Assembly: GCA_020630875.1 (NCBI GenBank)
Contig: JAHDIH010000003.1
Coordinates: forward strand, 334,071 to 398,070
Length of the DNA stretch: 64,000 bases
Origin: Deltaproteobacteria bacterium
GTDB lineage: Bacteria > Myxococcota_A > Polyangia > Haliangiales > Haliangiaceae
Direction: 5' to 3'
Within the stretch, counting starts at the first letter, position 1; the number at the start of each line of letters is the position of its first letter. Below, in pieces: positions 10,692-17,919 of the stretch. The notes below the pieces were generated by a model, which was given only the letters and a program-made list of their open reading frames with translations, was not told the origin of the DNA and searched no databases. Position numbers and translations under genes: made by a program.

Positions 10692-11759
10692 ATGGTAAAA
10701 TTGTCAGTGGGGTTACTAATGATACTCGGTCTCGTCGGGCAGGCTGAAGCGGCAGACTTAGGATGTACCGAAAGTGGTGGCGTCTGCTGTTTGACGAGTG
10801 CGTCTTGCGACCAAACTCAGCCTGACTGCGATTGCGACGGGATTCCGGACGCCACTGATACCGATGATGACAACGATGGGGTTTGCGACGTAGACATTTC
10901 GTTGAACGTGGTGGCCACCGGATGCATTAATCGAGCAGGTGGAGACCCCTCACCACGTAACCCGCTGGTTTGCGGCGACTTCGACATGGACACGTGCGAT
11001 GATTGCTCAAGGGGCAACACTTGCTTCTGGGACTATAACGATCCGTCCAACGCTACGACGGAGGCAAACTATCTTGCATGCGTCACGGCTATCAGTGACG
11101 TGGGGGGAAATGGACTGGTAATCGGACAAGATGGTTTCGGACCAGCTGCGAACTTCAACACCTCCGATGATGGAGCATGGTTTGGCACAAACGACGGCGA
11201 GTGCCGAGCGGATGCCGACAACGACGGGATTCCAGATGCTTTCGATTCTAATCCAAACGACCCAACACAGTGTGGTGATAGTGATAACGATGGATGCGAG
11301 GATTGCAGCAACCAGGTAGACGGACTTGGAGCACTCGCCGATTTTGATCTAGGCCAACAAACCGATCCTACAATCTGCGCCAACCAAGGATTCACAGCTC
11401 CCTGCGACATTTATCGAAACGATGGGCCAGATGCAGATGGTGATGGATTCTGTGACGTGGGCGACGATGACGATGGTGATGGTGTCCCCAACAGCCAAGA
11501 CAGTGCCCCCAACGACCCGTGGGTTTGTGGCATAGACGCGGATAACGATGGATGTGACGATTGCGCATTCACCGATGGCGACAATCCTAATCCTGATGGC
11601 CCCGACCCAGCCGGTAATGTACCGTGCGTACCGTCAAATCAAAATCCGGGGGCAACCGCCGGGGGAGCCGGATGCAGCCACGGAAGCACCACGCTTCCGC
11701 TAGCACTACTATTGCTTGCCGCATTTCTTCGGAGCCGACGACGACGCATAATTCACTGA
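10692..11759 (+). CDS. Secreted Asp-rich calcium-repeat protein with MYXO-CTERM-like tail
   Basis: The 355-residue protein has a signal peptide (about residues 1-20, ending AEAA). The body is filled with thrombospondin type 3-like repeats rich in Asp, such as DNDGIPDA, DADGDGFCDV and DGVPNSQDSAPND, with many paired Cys. These normally bind Ca2+. The C-terminus carries a short GGAGCS segment, a hydrophobic helix (about 333-345) and a RRRR cluster. This is the layout of MYXO-CTERM sorting signals, in which an invariant Cys is retained after cleavage and the protein is displayed on the cell surface. The ATG at 10692 is the first in-frame start after a stop; its GAGGG is too close to be a good ribosome site. 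The binding role is unknown. Confidence 0.8.
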   Translation: MVKLSVGLLMILGLVGQAEAADLGCTESGGVCCLTSASCDQTQPDCDCDGIPDATDTDDDNDGVCDVDISLNVVATGCINRAGGDPSPRNPLVCGDFDMDTCDDCSRGNTCFWDYNDPSNATTEANYLACVTAISDVGGNGLVIGQDGFGPAANFNTSDDGAWFGTNDGECRADADNDGIPDAFDSNPNDPTQCGDSDNDGCEDCSNQVDGLGALADFDLGQQTDPTICANQGFTAPCDIYRNDGPDADGDGFCDVGDDDDGDGVPNSQDSAPNDPWVCGIDADNDGCDDCAFTDGDNPNPDGPDPAGNVPCVPSNQNPGATAGGAGCSHGSTTLPLALLLLAAFLRSRRRRIIH

Positions 11760-11765
11760 GTTAAA

Positions 11766-13352
11766 TCAATAGCAGTAGTCGTAGTCGCCATCGTTGTATC
11801 CGTCGCCGTAACCATCAGAGTATCCCGTATTGTAACCTGAGTCGCAGCTGGAGTCCCACTCGACCGAATACCCTGCTTCGTAACCACTGTCGTAGCTGGT
11901 CGTATACATGGCGTTAAAGCCATCAATGTACCCCGCATCGTAGGAGGCATCCGCCGCGTCGTAGTAACCACTGCTGTATCCGGCATTGTAACCGCTATCG
12001 TAGCCGGCAGCGAACCCGGCGTCATAGCCTATGGGATAACTGTCGTTATAGCAGCGAAGGTACGCCTCAGCTGCTCCATCTGCAAAACCTACGGTCTCAC
12101 CATCGCTTATCCCTGCGGCATACCCATCAACCAATCCCACGTTATATCCCGCCGACCTGCCAACAGGGATACCTTCCGCCCGTCCTGCTTGGTACTCGAC
12201 ATTTGCATCTTTGGCCGCATTGAAAGCATTCCAATAGGGCTTCATGCTGTACGTATCGGAGTAGCCTTGCTCAAAACACAGTTGCAGATATTTATCACGG
12301 TCCACTTCTTCGGAGCGTAACTTCCCAATGCCGATGAAGTTAAAACTGCCGCAACGACTACCATCGTAGTACCCCCAATCGTACCCATCCGAATGACCAT
12401 CGGGATAACAAGCTGCATAGCCATCTGAGTAACCATCGTTTTCGCCTGCGGTGTACCCGTCGTTACGCCCCTGTTGTTGTCCCAACGACGAACCATCCGC
12501 GTACCCCAAGGAATAGTCTACCCCATCTCCGGCACGGTACCCGTCTGTAAATCCGGCAGGGTAACCTTGATGGTATCCCGTCGCATTTCCATCTCCATAC
12601 CCGGCGTTGAATCCGTCATTGTCACCGCTAACGCAGGATGCACTGTCGGCAAGACCCGCTTGGTGCCCTAGGTCGTATCCAGTATCGTATCCGGCGGGAT
12701 AGGCCGTATTGTGGTCGAAACCTTCCGCATAACCTGTGGCGTATCCCGAACTGTACCCGTCGGCGTAGCCATCATCAAACGTAAGAGCTTCCCCATCCGC
12801 AGTCCCTCGAACCGCATCCTCCGCCATTTGCATGTCTGCAGCCGCAATCCCATCGCTTCGGGACGTCGAGAGATCCAACGCAATGGAGCAATCCAGATAC
12901 CCCTTAGCCCGCAAAGAAACGTTCGATTTTGAAACCGCTGAGGATTCTTCACCCCTACTATAGGCCAAAGTCATTTCTTGCGATGCGGCGCCCTCTTCAA
13001 GCGGGCTGAATCGAATATTGATGGTGCAGCGGCCAGTTTGCGCTGGCAAGACGAGTCCGCTGATGCAGGTTCCGGAAGTTAGCAATTCAAACGGAGCGGT
13101 GATCGAAAGTCCCAATGGCGATACGTCCCGAAGTACGGCGTCAGCATCTCCTTCATTAATCACCTCAAACGAAGTCTGAGTAGATCGAAGAAGTGGGGTG
13201 TCAGCGAAGGTCTTATCCGATTCTTTATCTACCGGTGCAATCGTAAGCAGTGGCCCTGAGGGGTGTTGCGTGCACCCAACCCCCAACACACTAGTCAAAA
13301 CGCCTGCCGCCAACACCTTTGTCATTGCTAGCGGACGTCTCCCAACCTTCAT
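11766..13352 (-). CDS. Lipoprotein with ASH/Ig-like domain and a very long GX3 (Gly-Tyr) tetrapeptide repeat
   Basis: I do not know this protein as a named family. The 528 residues start with a basic n-region and hydrophobic segment ending in GVGC (Cys27), so it is probably a lipoprotein. Residues about 57-149 resemble a choice-of-anchor D/ASH Ig-like domain (SFEVINEGDADAVLRDVSP, RCTINIRFSP). From about residue 194 to the end the sequence is dominated by a four-residue period with Gly at position 1 and often Tyr at position 2 (GYAD GYSS GYAT GYAE), broken by single Cys and by one charged non-repeat block (about 320-370). GX3 runs of this type are known from Yae1/LTO1 and FliH. The start at 13352 is preferred over longer forms, which would overlap the FadL gene. 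It ends 6 bases from the convergent MYXO-CTERM-like gene. Confidence 0.75.
   Translation of the reverse strand: MKVGRRPLAMTKVLAAGVLTSVLGVGCTQHPSGPLLTIAPVDKESDKTFADTPLLRSTQTSFEVINEGDADAVLRDVSPLGLSITAPFELLTSGTCISGLVLPAQTGRCTINIRFSPLEEGAASQEMTLAYSRGEESSAVSKSNVSLRAKGYLDCSIALDLSTSRSDGIAAADMQMAEDAVRGTADGEALTFDDGYADGYSSGYATGYAEGFDHNTAYPAGYDTGYDLGHQAGLADSASCVSGDNDGFNAGYGDGNATGYHQGYPAGFTDGYRAGDGVDYSLGYADGSSLGQQQGRNDGYTAGENDGYSDGYAACYPDGHSDGYDWGYYDGSRCGSFNFIGIGKLRSEEVDRDKYLQLCFEQGYSDTYSMKPYWNAFNAAKDANVEYQAGRAEGIPVGRSAGYNVGLVDGYAAGISDGETVGFADGAAEAYLRCYNDSYPIGYDAGFAAGYDSGYNAGYSSGYYDAADASYDAGYIDGFNAMYTTSYDSGYEAGYSVEWDSSCDSGYNTGYSDGYGDGYNDGDYDYCY
11769..12773 (-). repeat. DNA encoding degenerate 12-bp (GX3) tandem repeats
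   Basis: The sequence encodes Gly-(Tyr/Phe/any)-x-x units at 12-bp spacing, seen on the plus strand as recurrent gTAnCCn-type blocks (for example GTAACC, GTATCC, GTACCC). The repeats are diverged at DNA level, with no long identical copies, so they look ancient and protein-selected rather than a recent expansion. Confidence 0.8.
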
Positions 13353-13372: not shown

Positions 13373-14707
13373 TTACTTGAGTTTGTACTTTAGCCCAAGT
13401 CCGACTAGTAGCCATTGTTGTTTGTAGGTTCCATCATTAACAAATACCGGCGGGTCTTCGGCGCCTCTAATGGGATTTACTTGTGCTTCGCGTCCATTGC
13501 CGGGAGCAATGGTATGAGTAGTACGTGGAGTAGCCGCAAGCGCTAAGCTCCACGTGTACTTTCCTTTCTGATAGCGAAGTCCAGCGCCAAGAAAGTGCTT
13601 GTCTAAATCAATGAGCTTAACCGATACGTTCTCGTCGGGACTTGCCCCGGTTTCGTAAGCGTAACCAGCAGAGAGCGTCAGTGTGTCCGACAGAGAGTAC
13701 TGTCCGCCGATTCGCGCGGAGTAGACGTTGTTAAAACTAAAGTCCAAGTCAATGGCACCAAGCTCATAGGTACCAATGCCAACCACGTTTTCAATAGTCG
13801 CGTCTCTTGGGTCAATACGAATACGATCGAGCATTTTCCAAAACTCCGCTTGCAAGGAAAGTTCCGCTCTCCACTTTTTTCCTCTTATCTCAATACCAGC
13901 GGCAGCAATTGGTGCGTACCAGAAATCTAAGTCTGCCTTGTTACCGTTTATCTCGGCACTGTCAAAAATATTATCGCTTGGAAGTGTTACCTCGATGCTA
14001 CCGCCACCAGTAACTTTAGCTGGCGCTTGCAGAGAAAGACCTACTCGCATGTTGTCTTTAGGTAAATAGACCGCACCAACCGATAAGCTGGGCGAAAGAA
14101 AGCTCCAAATATCAGCTCTAACTACCGCATCGAAGTCTGGATCTTCCGGAGCACAAAACGTTTGCCCTGGACAAGAGGAGACGACAGAGGTCGCAGCCAA
14201 ACGATACACAAAGTTTTGCACCATACCGCCAACGTACAGTTTATCCGAAACTTTATACGAAGCGCCAAAGCCTAACGCAATGGCTGCGGTTTGCGACATA
14301 TCTCCCATCGAGTACCTTTGTGGCCCGTCAATATCAAACTTCGGAAGCCCTCCGTAGGGAGCGTACAAACCTGCCGCAAACCGAATTTTGCTGTTGAACT
14401 TCCAACTTGCCGCTAAGGTTGGAATCGGTAACCCTTTGTTCTGATCCTTTACCGATGGAAGAGCGTTCCCTCCGGAATCTACACGCTCGTACGATAGAGG
14501 CCTCGATACGAAGCTAAAGTCGACATGCAGATTGGTCCCTGTCTCAAAAGCGATGCTCGCGGGGTTCGTGCTCCAGAACTCGAGTCCTTCTCCACCAGCA
14601 ACAGATGCCCCGCCCCGCATTACCGATGCGACTCCTCTTGTTGGCAGCTGAAGTCCGCCTGCGGAAGCTTCGGTTGCGACCAAAAGTAATACGATAAATT
14701 TCTTCAT
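13373..14707 (-). CDS. Outer-membrane hydrophobic-compound transporter, FadL/OmpP1/TodX family
   Basis: FadL-family barrels move long-chain fatty acids or other hydrophobic molecules across the outer membrane. The 444-residue protein has a signal peptide (about 1-16, ASAGG), a plug-like N-terminal region with the family hallmark pattern around STNPASIAF (NPA motif) and VASVMRGGASVAGGEG, and a beta-barrel to the end (YKLK). AAGLYAPYGG and several alternating aromatic strands match the family. Its ATG overlaps the stop of the giant lipoprotein gene (ATGA), indicating coupled expression, and the GX3 lipoprotein follows 20 bases downstream. The substrate is unknown. Confidence 0.85.
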   Translation of the reverse strand: MKKFIVLLLVATEASAGGLQLPTRGVASVMRGGASVAGGEGLEFWSTNPASIAFETGTNLHVDFSFVSRPLSYERVDSGGNALPSVKDQNKGLPIPTLAASWKFNSKIRFAAGLYAPYGGLPKFDIDGPQRYSMGDMSQTAAIALGFGASYKVSDKLYVGGMVQNFVYRLAATSVVSSCPGQTFCAPEDPDFDAVVRADIWSFLSPSLSVGAVYLPKDNMRVGLSLQAPAKVTGGGSIEVTLPSDNIFDSAEINGNKADLDFWYAPIAAAGIEIRGKKWRAELSLQAEFWKMLDRIRIDPRDATIENVVGIGTYELGAIDLDFSFNNVYSARIGGQYSLSDTLTLSAGYAYETGASPDENVSVKLIDLDKHFLGAGLRYQKGKYTWSLALAATPRTTHTIAPGNGREAQVNPIRGAEDPPVFVNDGTYKQQWLLVGLGLKYKLK

Positions 14708-17700
14708 CGATTTCGTTCCTCAATAATTCGAATAATTTTCGGAAAACCACGATCTTTATCATTAAAAAAACCGGAGATTGAATCGGCTATTGCTTGAACG
14801 TCTGCGGTCGTATGAGCTTTGGACGCATCTTGCGTCGGCTGGTCTCGTGACACAGAAGCCACCACTGTAGAAAGATGGGCCACCGGTAACCGACCATTTC
14901 CCGAGTCGGAAAACATTCGATTAATGATTCCGAGCACGACCCCTTCGCTGTCTACGGACAACAAACGGTGGTTGAGTCTCACGAGTGCATCAGCCCAACC
15001 GTTATCCCCTGTAATTCCAGTACCAACCAGTCGCAACACAGAGTAGAACTCTTCACCTTGAGCCATTAAATCAATCATTGTTGCGGAACCTGCAACGACA
15101 GCTTCTACATTGTCGGAATCAGAAAGTATGGTCGAAACAACTTTGCTTAGTTCTCGCCGGACGTCTGCCGGAATGCCATCGGCCATATCAAAGAAGCCGC
15201 TGGTAAGTGGACTGGTCAACATAGAAAGAGCGTCTTCCGGCAAAGTCTGTCGAGCCCAATCGTCGCGGTCCCCGAAGGCATCGTGCTCCGAGATACGATC
15301 ACGAAGTAAATCGATAGTCGCTATCGACAATCCTACTAGATCTCTATTCTTAAACCGCCAGCCTGAAACATTCTCGCCACGAACCAAAGCATCAACCATG
15401 CCTTTAGTTCCTACCGGCCAGTTTACATCACTCGCCACCGCATCTTGCGCACGTCTTAGTCCGTAAACCATAAGGTGTGCAGGAGTTAGACTGTCGTGCG
15501 GCCCCCCATCAAGTCTCGGTATTTCGCTATCGCCGCCCCAAGTCCGAAGTCCTGGTACCTCCGACAGCACAAAACCAACCATTTCATCAATACTTCGCGC
15601 AAGAGGTTGCCCCCCCGCCGAGGTAGCATCTACGGCTTGCAGCAATCCTACCAAAGAAGGTACAAAGTCAGGATCTTCTAGCGTCTCAATTAAGAATGGC
15701 TCGAAACTTTGGAGGTTAGAAGCCTTCGCATAACCTTGGGTATCCTCTACCCGATTATGATCCGTGGAATCTTCCGATGGCCAATGTTGATAGAGCACGG
15801 TCAGGATGTCGACAAGTATTTCCTCGGCATCATGATCTGCAAAGACTTGTACTAGCGGTCGAAGGTCGCTATAGAAGTTGTCTTTTTCCCAAGATGGCAG
15901 CGCGTCACTGTGTACTTGAGTGTACTTGACGCCATGCTTTGTTTCCACCGGGTCGGCTATTTCCGCAAGGAATGATGGCGCAGGGTCTAATAGTAGTACG
16001 CGAGTCAACGCTTCAGGGGTTGGGTGCGTTCTGAACCCTTCGATTCCAACCATATCCTCCATCATGTTGTCGGTCACTAGCAGTTCAATGAGAGTGCTGT
16101 CCCAGTTAAACGGAAGCTCCGCCTTTCGAACAGGGACGCCATTATCGTAAACCACTGCTCCATTTTGCTTCTTGTACGCTATCGACTGAACGAAAAACAC
16201 TGCCACATTATCGATTTGAAGAAGCGCACATTCATCGTAGGTTTTAATTGGAATTCCAAGATTCAATGGGTCAGTTACGCGTGCCCCTTGCTTGTTACAA
16301 TACTTGAGTCTGTTCGAGTCGGAAACAAGGTACAGAATGCGTTGCATTAAAGAGCGATTGGATCCTGAGTCGGTAAAGCTTCTATCAACTGGACTTGTGA
16401 AGTCACCAACCACTTGTTGATTAACTCCAAACGTAAATTTATCGCGGAACTTCATGCTTTTTGCGAATTTACGCATCATGGTCGTGGTTTGCGGGCGTGC
16501 CAACTCTTCTATCAATTGCTCGTGCAACCCCGGGTGGGCTGCCATGGCTTGCAGGTGTGGCAATAGATCATCAATTAGCGTTTGGTTGTTAGCCAATACG
16601 GCATTAGGATAGTTGTCCAGTCGACGGGCGGTAGCTACAGCGGCTTCGGCAAAATGCGCAAGCTCTGACTCTTTAGTGCGAAACAATTCTCTTGTTCCCA
16701 CCAACAGCTCATCAATTTCTTGATGGCGAAGCAAAGTCGTCAAACTATGCACCAAATCCATTGCCGGGGAATCGTTTCCATCAAAACCTTGGTACGTTAT
16801 TTCTTCACCATTGGGGTAAGTGCGAGTTGATTCGCTACGCAAGCCTAACATTTTTTGCATTCCGCCAAGCAAGTTGAGCAGCGGCTGCGTTTCTGGATCG
16901 AAAAAGAGAGGTGCATTGCGTGTCAAAGCTGACATCACCGTCTTACCCGTATCGCGATATTCGTAAACGGTACTTCCACCAGGAGCAGAAAGTACTCGAC
17001 CAAGAGAATCACGCGGAAGAAGTCCTGGAGAGTTTGGATGTGGAAATGGCGTCTCGACGACGACAGGCTGACCATTGGTATCTATAAAGTTTCCGGCCCC
17101 GTCAGTATCTGCAAGACCGTCGTTATTCTTGTCAACGAGTCCCATTGGCCAGCTGCCACTTACTCGCGTAACCTTCGCCTTCCCTCTCTCATCGAGTACT
17201 ACCGCGGGACTTGACGTGCCGTTGATGAGTGGTTGCTCTGAGAGTAGATAGTCTGAGGCTATCGATAGAATTTCTTGTTCGTCGCCCGCGCCAAAATTTC
17301 TGAGAGATGCGCCGACTCCGGTAAGCATTTGCGAAAATCCATCTCGAGCTCGGCCACCTGGAGCCACCTCGGCAAGAAACTGAGCAAGAGAGGTAGAAAC
17401 CTCAGGAGAACTTGTTAACGCGGCGATCATCCCCCCCGGTTTGGCGGAGAGCCCTTCTTGGTTAACAAAGTGGGCGATGGACGTTAGCGACTCACTATCT
17501 TCTGAGAGCGTAAGTGAAAATTCTGCTAGTGCGTTGGCGGCTCCCCGGGTCACGCCATCGTCGTGCGCAAGATGCACTTCCTTGGATGCAAGAATCGTTT
17601 GCAACTTTGCGGCGGTATCTTCGGGGACAAGGTGGTCTAAGGTCTGCTCAGTGAGTAATCGATCTTGTTGAAAAGCTTGCGCCTGTGGAGGTGCGGAAGT

Positions 17701-17919
17701 TGGAACGTCGTAACCAAAGCAATACGTTTTTGCCCTTGCACCACTAACATCAACAATTCCATCGCCATCAGCTAAGTCAGCATGGTAATCGAGACGACGA
17801 CAAAACAGCGATGCTACTTCTTCACCAAAACTGCCATGACCATCGTCGACCCTTTCAGGAAGTGGTTCGCTGCATGCCGTTGCAAACACCAGAAAAAGGG
17901 CGGTTCTCTGCATGAACAT
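14704..17919 (-). CDS. Giant lipoprotein of unknown function, coupled to the FadL-like gene
   Basis: The 1071-residue protein has a short signal with the lipobox ATAC (Cys16). The mature part begins with an Asp/Gly segment (HADLADGDGIVDV) and then appears largely alpha-helical, with no transmembrane segments and a repeating character of helix pairs (for example around SMLTSPLTSGFFDMADGIP, and SKVVSTILSDSDNVEAVVAG). I recognise no named domain. The ATGA overlap with the FadL-like gene implies a joint role at the outer membrane, possibly as a periplasmic or surface partner of the transporter; that is inference. A TATAGG hexamer ends 6 bases before the ATG at 17919. A start two codons later (17913) is possible. 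Confidence 0.8.
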   Translation of the reverse strand: MFMQRTALFLVFATACSEPLPERVDDGHGSFGEEVASLFCRRLDYHADLADGDGIVDVSGARAKTYCFGYDVPTSAPPQAQAFQQDRLLTEQTLDHLVPEDTAAKLQTILASKEVHLAHDDGVTRGAANALAEFSLTLSEDSESLTSIAHFVNQEGLSAKPGGMIAALTSSPEVSTSLAQFLAEVAPGGRARDGFSQMLTGVGASLRNFGAGDEQEILSIASDYLLSEQPLINGTSSPAVVLDERGKAKVTRVSGSWPMGLVDKNNDGLADTDGAGNFIDTNGQPVVVETPFPHPNSPGLLPRDSLGRVLSAPGGSTVYEYRDTGKTVMSALTRNAPLFFDPETQPLLNLLGGMQKMLGLRSESTRTYPNGEEITYQGFDGNDSPAMDLVHSLTTLLRHQEIDELLVGTRELFRTKESELAHFAEAAVATARRLDNYPNAVLANNQTLIDDLLPHLQAMAAHPGLHEQLIEELARPQTTTMMRKFAKSMKFRDKFTFGVNQQVVGDFTSPVDRSFTDSGSNRSLMQRILYLVSDSNRLKYCNKQGARVTDPLNLGIPIKTYDECALLQIDNVAVFFVQSIAYKKQNGAVVYDNGVPVRKAELPFNWDSTLIELLVTDNMMEDMVGIEGFRTHPTPEALTRVLLLDPAPSFLAEIADPVETKHGVKYTQVHSDALPSWEKDNFYSDLRPLVQVFADHDAEEILVDILTVLYQHWPSEDSTDHNRVEDTQGYAKASNLQSFEPFLIETLEDPDFVPSLVGLLQAVDATSAGGQPLARSIDEMVGFVLSEVPGLRTWGGDSEIPRLDGGPHDSLTPAHLMVYGLRRAQDAVASDVNWPVGTKGMVDALVRGENVSGWRFKNRDLVGLSIATIDLLRDRISEHDAFGDRDDWARQTLPEDALSMLTSPLTSGFFDMADGIPADVRRELSKVVSTILSDSDNVEAVVAGSATMIDLMAQGEEFYSVLRLVGTGITGDNGWADALVRLNHRLLSVDSEGVVLGIINRMFSDSGNGRLPVAHLSTVVASVSRDQPTQDASKAHTTADVQAIADSISGFFNDKDRGFPKIIRIIEERNR

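Follow-up and report, generated by a model that had tools for sequence, protein, structure and literature searches.

A myxobacterial family of putative lipoproteins with glycine at every fourth residue, six conserved cysteines and a predicted helical fold

Long GxxxG repeats are rare. Repeated xxxG units occur in FliH/YscL, a cytoplasmic export component with 2–10 glycine repeats on average, in which the repeats are predicted to be helical and contacts of aromatic residues over glycine have been proposed; at the time of that 2009 analysis no structure with a long GxxxG repeat had been solved and the packing was unknown (PMC2674601). Ten GX3 tetrads are present in Yae1 and Lto1, cytosolic eukaryotic adaptors, of which Lto1 has a C-terminal tryptophan and requires its glycines for binding of Yae1 (PMC4523923). 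In the YG zipper of SMN, tyrosine and glycine interdigitate every four residues in an α-helix, each tyrosine packing on the backbone of the opposing helix's i+3 glycine, and structures of the YG box are available (PDB 4GLI, 4RG5; PMC8287954). The Cdz bacteriocins are proteins of 84–86 amino acids that are nearly all hydrophobic zipper and are secreted by type I systems (PMC5380434). The window analysed here, a stretch of 64,000 nucleotides from a Deltaproteobacteria bacterium, encodes a protein of 528 amino acids (Table 1) that resembles each of these in part: FliH/YscL in its repeated and predicted helical xxxG, Yae1/Lto1 in a long run with glycine at each fourth residue, SMN in the GYxxG phase with tyrosine three residues before glycine, which is dominant in the GX3 family, and Cdz as a putative glycine-zipper protein at the bacterial surface. 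A lipoprotein signal peptide is followed by an Ig-like domain and then by about 375 residues of the repeat.

The four-residue period is strong. Residues 187–528 contain 63 glycines, and pairs of glycines four residues apart number 46 compared with 11.3 in shuffled sequences (z 12.4); 40 pairs lie eight residues apart (z 10.4), an excess is present at each tested multiple of four up to 24, and over the same residues no pair falls at an odd distance. The sequence-only reading had the repeat extending to the C-terminus; the period itself holds, but the run is not continuous, being parted into two halves by a conserved non-repeat core, CFEQGYSDTYSMKPYWNAFNAAKDANVEYQAG (residues 359–390). In the 47 tetrads the position after glycine is tyrosine in 57% and phenylalanine in 9%, and the third position is aspartate in 38% and alanine in 23%. 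No DNA tandem repeat was found in the gene at a score of 30, the tetrads agree with each other at a mean of 5.7 of 12 bases with no identical pair, and all four glycine codons are used. As the DNA has no tandem repeat and the tetrads are mutually diverged, the period is kept at the level of the protein, as had been proposed. Between close homologues (56–69% identical) pairwise dN/dS is 0.36–0.66, glycine is shared in about three-quarters of the columns where either protein has it, and the codons differ in a quarter to a half of these shared columns; judged from these alignments, the family is under moderate purifying selection that retains the glycines in the protein. Low complexity and a dN/dS that is only moderately low might also be expected of a non-functional expansion under no constraint, an explanation to which we give almost no credence in view of the diverged synonymous codons and, as set out below, of ordered homology far above that of shuffled sequences and an invariant cysteine spacing.

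Table 1. Positions in the window of the GX3 lipoprotein gene, its parts and its neighbours
Feature	Position	Strand	Basis or remark
GX3 lipoprotein gene, 528 aa	11766..13352	-	open-reading-frame translation
Putative lipoprotein signal peptide and lipid-attachment Cys27 (MKVGRRPLAMTKVLAAGVLTSVLGVG, then C)	13272..13352	-	read from translation; alternative start Met10
Ig-like domain (choice-of-anchor-D/ASH type), about residues 40–150, with Cys96 and Cys109	12903..13235	-	profile matches below cut-off; same domain and Cys pair in L068
GX3 lobe A, residues 155–275, conserved Cys155 and Cys240	12528..12890	-	homology to short family; AlphaFold2 helices
Extra GX3 repeats, residues 276–350, Cys315 and Cys334, particular to window protein	12303..12527	-	insertion relative to homologues in alignment; pLDDT <50
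Conserved core and GX3 lobe B, residues 351–470, Cys359 and Cys434, NxxYQAG motif	11943..12302	-	alignment, Cys spacing, AlphaFold2 helices
C-terminal GX3 extension, Cys503 and Cys527 (conserved last Cys)	11769..11942	-	alignment; longer than in homologues; low pLDDT
FadL/OmpP1-like outer-membrane protein, about 20 bases before lipoprotein start	13373..14707	-	Pfam Toluene_X E 6e-31; upstream neighbour
1071-aa putative lipoprotein, no known family	14704..17919	-	homologue in 46/144 class genomes; synteny
Asp/Cys-rich protein, MYXO-CTERM-like end	10692..11759	+	NCBIfam MYXO-CTERM E 0.009, below cut-off; convergent neighbour

The window protein is a member of a conserved and apparently undescribed family of Myxococcota lipoproteins of about 290 amino acids; a limited search of open-licence papers found no description of it. 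A contig scan with the window protein alone as query returned no relative, whereas an alignment of homologues used against the whole genome collection gave 17 loci, all in records of Myxococcota or 'Deltaproteobacteria', with hosts that include Kofleriaceae, Plesiocystis pacifica and Paraliomyxa miuraensis. By our count 13 genomes out of 30 in the window's taxonomic family have a true member, and four further families of the class contain members as well; viral contigs searched with the family alignment gave no match. With a profile built from 15 short homologues the window protein scored 206 bits, compared with 79 ± 11.5 bits (maximum 110) for 300 shuffled versions that kept every glycine and cysteine and the phase composition, and 93 ± 9 bits (maximum 119) for 300 in which the order of the tetrads was shuffled. 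The periodicity on which the sequence-only reading had built is retained in homologues. Weak phylum-wide matches were rejected as family members because they consist of short low-complexity runs, as in L043–L048, of the GFSTGFSTG type or similar; the tetrad runs of L043, L044 and L048, from other Myxococcota genomes, are of this type and appear to be unrelated to the family. In one truncated homologue (L037, 7971–8261) the reading frame changes after the conserved N-terminal motif and soon reaches a stop; this is possibly a decaying copy or an assembly error.

Export as a lipoprotein, which had also been proposed, is supported by a signal peptide that ends in Cys27 and by the homologues, each of which has a signal peptide with [AG]C at its end. 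The ...LGVGC at its end in the window protein agrees with the general lipobox pattern. The start of the gene is ambiguous (Met at 13352 or 13325), and the longest open reading frame opens within the FadL-like gene, at 13415 (minus strand). The homologues in related genomes are mostly without the Ig-like domain and have the layout C(lipid)-xx(xx)-DCFDGGPLE..., lobe A, a charged linker and lobe B, with a lobe B core of DxxAYxRGLAxGKRDNPDYQAGY; their GxxxG motifs number 25–32 compared with 47 in the window protein. Invariant residues across the family are glycines, cysteines and a few D/E/N/P/Q/R, and the alignment has no invariant set of His, Ser and Lys. The ASH/Ig-like domain noted earlier in the window protein is recognizable, although its matches to NCBIfam choice_anch_D (E 4e-8) and to the Pfam HYDIN/VesB Ig-like profile (E 9e-4) both miss the curated thresholds, and as the former reaches 33.7 bits against a cut-off of 45 we name the domain Ig-like and do not file it as a choice-of-anchor-D member. 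One other genome (L068) has the same Ig-GX3 architecture, matches choice-of-anchor-D/ASH at the corresponding place (E 4e-5) and clusters with the window protein, at 100/99 support but on a long branch; unlike these two, the short GX3 family has no such domain. From the alignment the domain is an insertion of this subfamily, and since it is located exactly between the lipid cysteine and the first conserved DC of the family it would act as an inserted spacer.

All full-length short homologues have the same six cysteines besides that carrying the lipid, in the pattern C-(81–85)-C-(41–43)-C in lobe A and C-75-C-(37–41)-C in lobe B. The gap of exactly 75 residues does not vary among full-length members, L068 and the window protein (C359–C434) included; in the window protein the first gap of lobe A (C155–C240) is 85. 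The single cysteines that had been seen punctuating the runs are present but are not incidental, being the conserved cysteines of the family at their fixed spacing; the window protein has two more, together with extra repeats, in expansions at residues 276–350 and 471–528. The number of mature cysteines is even in all compared members but one (L022, with seven), and this, with their wide spacing and export of the protein, suggests that the conserved cysteines form disulfides. Another possibility is a cation-binding or metal-handling envelope protein, in which stripes of aspartate, or the cysteines, hold Ca2+ or another metal. The protein is strongly acidic (77 D+E versus 24 K+R after residue 20) and aspartate is the commonest residue before glycine, but it has no known metal motif, the aspartate positions are loosely kept (44% Asp and 27% Ala at the third position in homologue tetrads), the cysteines are widely separated and mostly occur in even numbers, and no twin-arginine signal for exporting a folded metalloprotein is conserved; we consider this role improbable. 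An iron-sulfur or metal-carrying scaffold, as suggested by the sequence-only reading, is unlikely from the cysteine pattern, which has no CxxC-type motif, and from the lack of a conserved twin-arginine signal.

An AlphaFold2 model of the window protein, built with 16 homologues, predicts regular helices in the two lobes (pLDDT 98–99) instead of disorder. In lobe A pLDDT is 91–99 over residues 161–270, with helices at 159–188, 192–212, 218–234 and 237–275, and in lobe B it is 92–99, with helices at 352–367, 371–383 and 385–468; model confidence is low for the Ig-like domain and for residues 276–350 and 471–528. The Paraliomyxa homologue is also modelled as helices, with a helical run of 88 residues and a mean pLDDT of 83, and pTM of the models is 0.48–0.63. 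The two lobes align with each other at an HHalign probability of 98.9, a score inflated by their shared low-complexity composition, which suggests that the GX3 body consists of two lobes from an internal duplication. Foldseek searches of PDB and of viral models returned no match with E below 1. The sole PDB sequence match below 0.01, to pyridoxal kinase (6su9), rests on a low-complexity Asn/His-Gly run and is not a relative.

The nearest solved structural precedent that we found for the repeat is the SMN YG zipper. In the predicted helices tyrosine directly follows glycine in 43% of homologue tetrads, as it does in the majority of those of the window protein, and an aromatic residue occupies this position in about two-thirds; by analogy, close packing of the glycine faces would be predicted. 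SMN, however, forms a short C-terminal homodimer helix in eukaryotes, whereas the GX3 protein is a single exported bacterial chain that carries dozens of tetrads as well as conserved cysteines, and the PDB searches gave no sequence match between the two. The resemblance is a likeness and not kinship.

Kinship with Yae1 and FliH, which the earlier reading had brought up for comparison, is not supported. The window protein scores 58 bits against Pfam Yae1_N (PF09811; cut-off 27.5), and in a control of one shuffle of each kind the match was lost when non-glycine residues were scrambled across positions or all residues were scrambled. A shuffle that kept only the glycine phase and positional composition, however, still scored 34.2 bits, and because this too exceeds the cut-off the match is no evidence of ancestry; bacterial matches to Yae1_N can be compositional. 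In NCBIfam FliH was matched below threshold, by the repeat part only (77 bits, cut-off 180), and the FliH C-terminal domain is absent. A Yae1/Lto1-like or FliH-like adaptor with an inherited deca-GX3 motif, for which these matches might be cited, is scarcely credible for an exported protein with conserved cysteines that ends in ...DYDYCY, without the C-terminal tryptophan of Lto1. Yae1/Lto1 is cytosolic with its ten tetrads, and FliH/YscL is cytoplasmic and has other domains, while GX3 members are exported, Cys-rich and have 25–47 GxxxG. A common mode of helix packing is possible; the claim of a common family fails.

Perhaps the helices zip between molecules rather than within one, which would let the protein polymerise or bind cells to one another as a self-assembling surface fibre or adhesin. 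GYxxG faces dimerise in SMN, on Caulobacter cells hydrophobic proteins with glycine zippers form aggregates, repeat number varies between the window protein and its homologues, and the GX3 domain would be held further out by the Ig-like spacer. The exact cysteine spacing and near-constant length of the short family are nevertheless more readily explained by a closed, fixed fold than by an open polymer. The composition is also acidic, polar and Tyr-rich, in contrast to the hydrophobic Cdz zippers, which are short and secreted where the GX3 protein is long (528 amino acids) and lipid-anchored, and no type I secretion genes were found among the scanned neighbours. We regard a fibre or adhesin as rather unlikely.

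The gene neighbourhood was considered with respect to the proposal that the protein forms a system with the adjacent FadL-like gene. The GX3 gene lies immediately downstream on the same strand and is likely to be co-transcribed with it, which would favour a part in FadL-type uptake of lipids or hydrocarbons. However, the FadL-like gene, which overlaps that of the 1071-aa putative lipoprotein by four bases, is paired with the latter in 12 of 12 relatives sampled from several families of the class, without a GX3 gene beside them, and in five of these FadL is directly convergent with a TetR gene across gaps of about 50–350 bases that leave no room for GX3. In the window this space is occupied by the GX3 gene and the convergent gene for the Asp/Cys-rich protein. 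The short homologues are in unrelated contexts with no relative of the window FadL nearby, and in L068 an OmpP1-like gene lies at a distance of more than 1 kb and is oppositely oriented. From this synteny the link with FadL looks recent and local; the proposed system finds no support and a function in such uptake is very unlikely. Neighbours of GX3 genes are common within one clade and different between clades, and among the loci examined no recurrent neighbour points to function. Separately, the 1071-aa protein, which has no Pfam or NCBIfam match, and FadL look like a conserved uncharacterised outer-membrane pair (13373–17919, minus strand), and the Asp/Cys-rich protein contains DxDxDG-type (thrombospondin-3-like) repeats.

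Taken as a whole, we lean somewhat towards a lipoprotein of the envelope that is braced by disulfides, packs its helices as zippers and serves as a non-enzymatic scaffold or binding protein, with greater confidence in the fold than in the role. The GX3 body would be a two-lobed, internally duplicated, all-helical domain of an exported lipoprotein, in which the glycine face of each helix allows helices to pack backbone to backbone, the aromatic residue after each glycine packs, in the manner of the SMN YG zipper, over a glycine of the adjacent helix, and Asp, Ala and Ser lie on the outside. Oxidation of the conserved cysteines outside the cytoplasm would staple the helices, the N-terminal lipid would hold the domain at the envelope and, in the window subfamily, the Ig-like spacer would stand between lipid and helices. 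A rigid acidic scaffold or binding module is the most likely role because no catalytic set is conserved, although such an absence is no proof. We also propose, tentatively, that GX3 is a new fold, a monomeric, disulfide-stapled, intrachain glycine-tyrosine zipper bundle that some lineages have extended and raised on an Ig-like stalk as a surface structure.

The mature domains of the family are soluble, about 270 residues long, predicted to be helical and possibly disulfide-locked, and could be expressed and crystallised. A solved GX3 domain would make extended glycine-zipper packing directly testable and, by extension, that of FliH and Yae1/Lto1; this previously unnamed myxobacterial family could therefore reveal how long glycine repeats fold.
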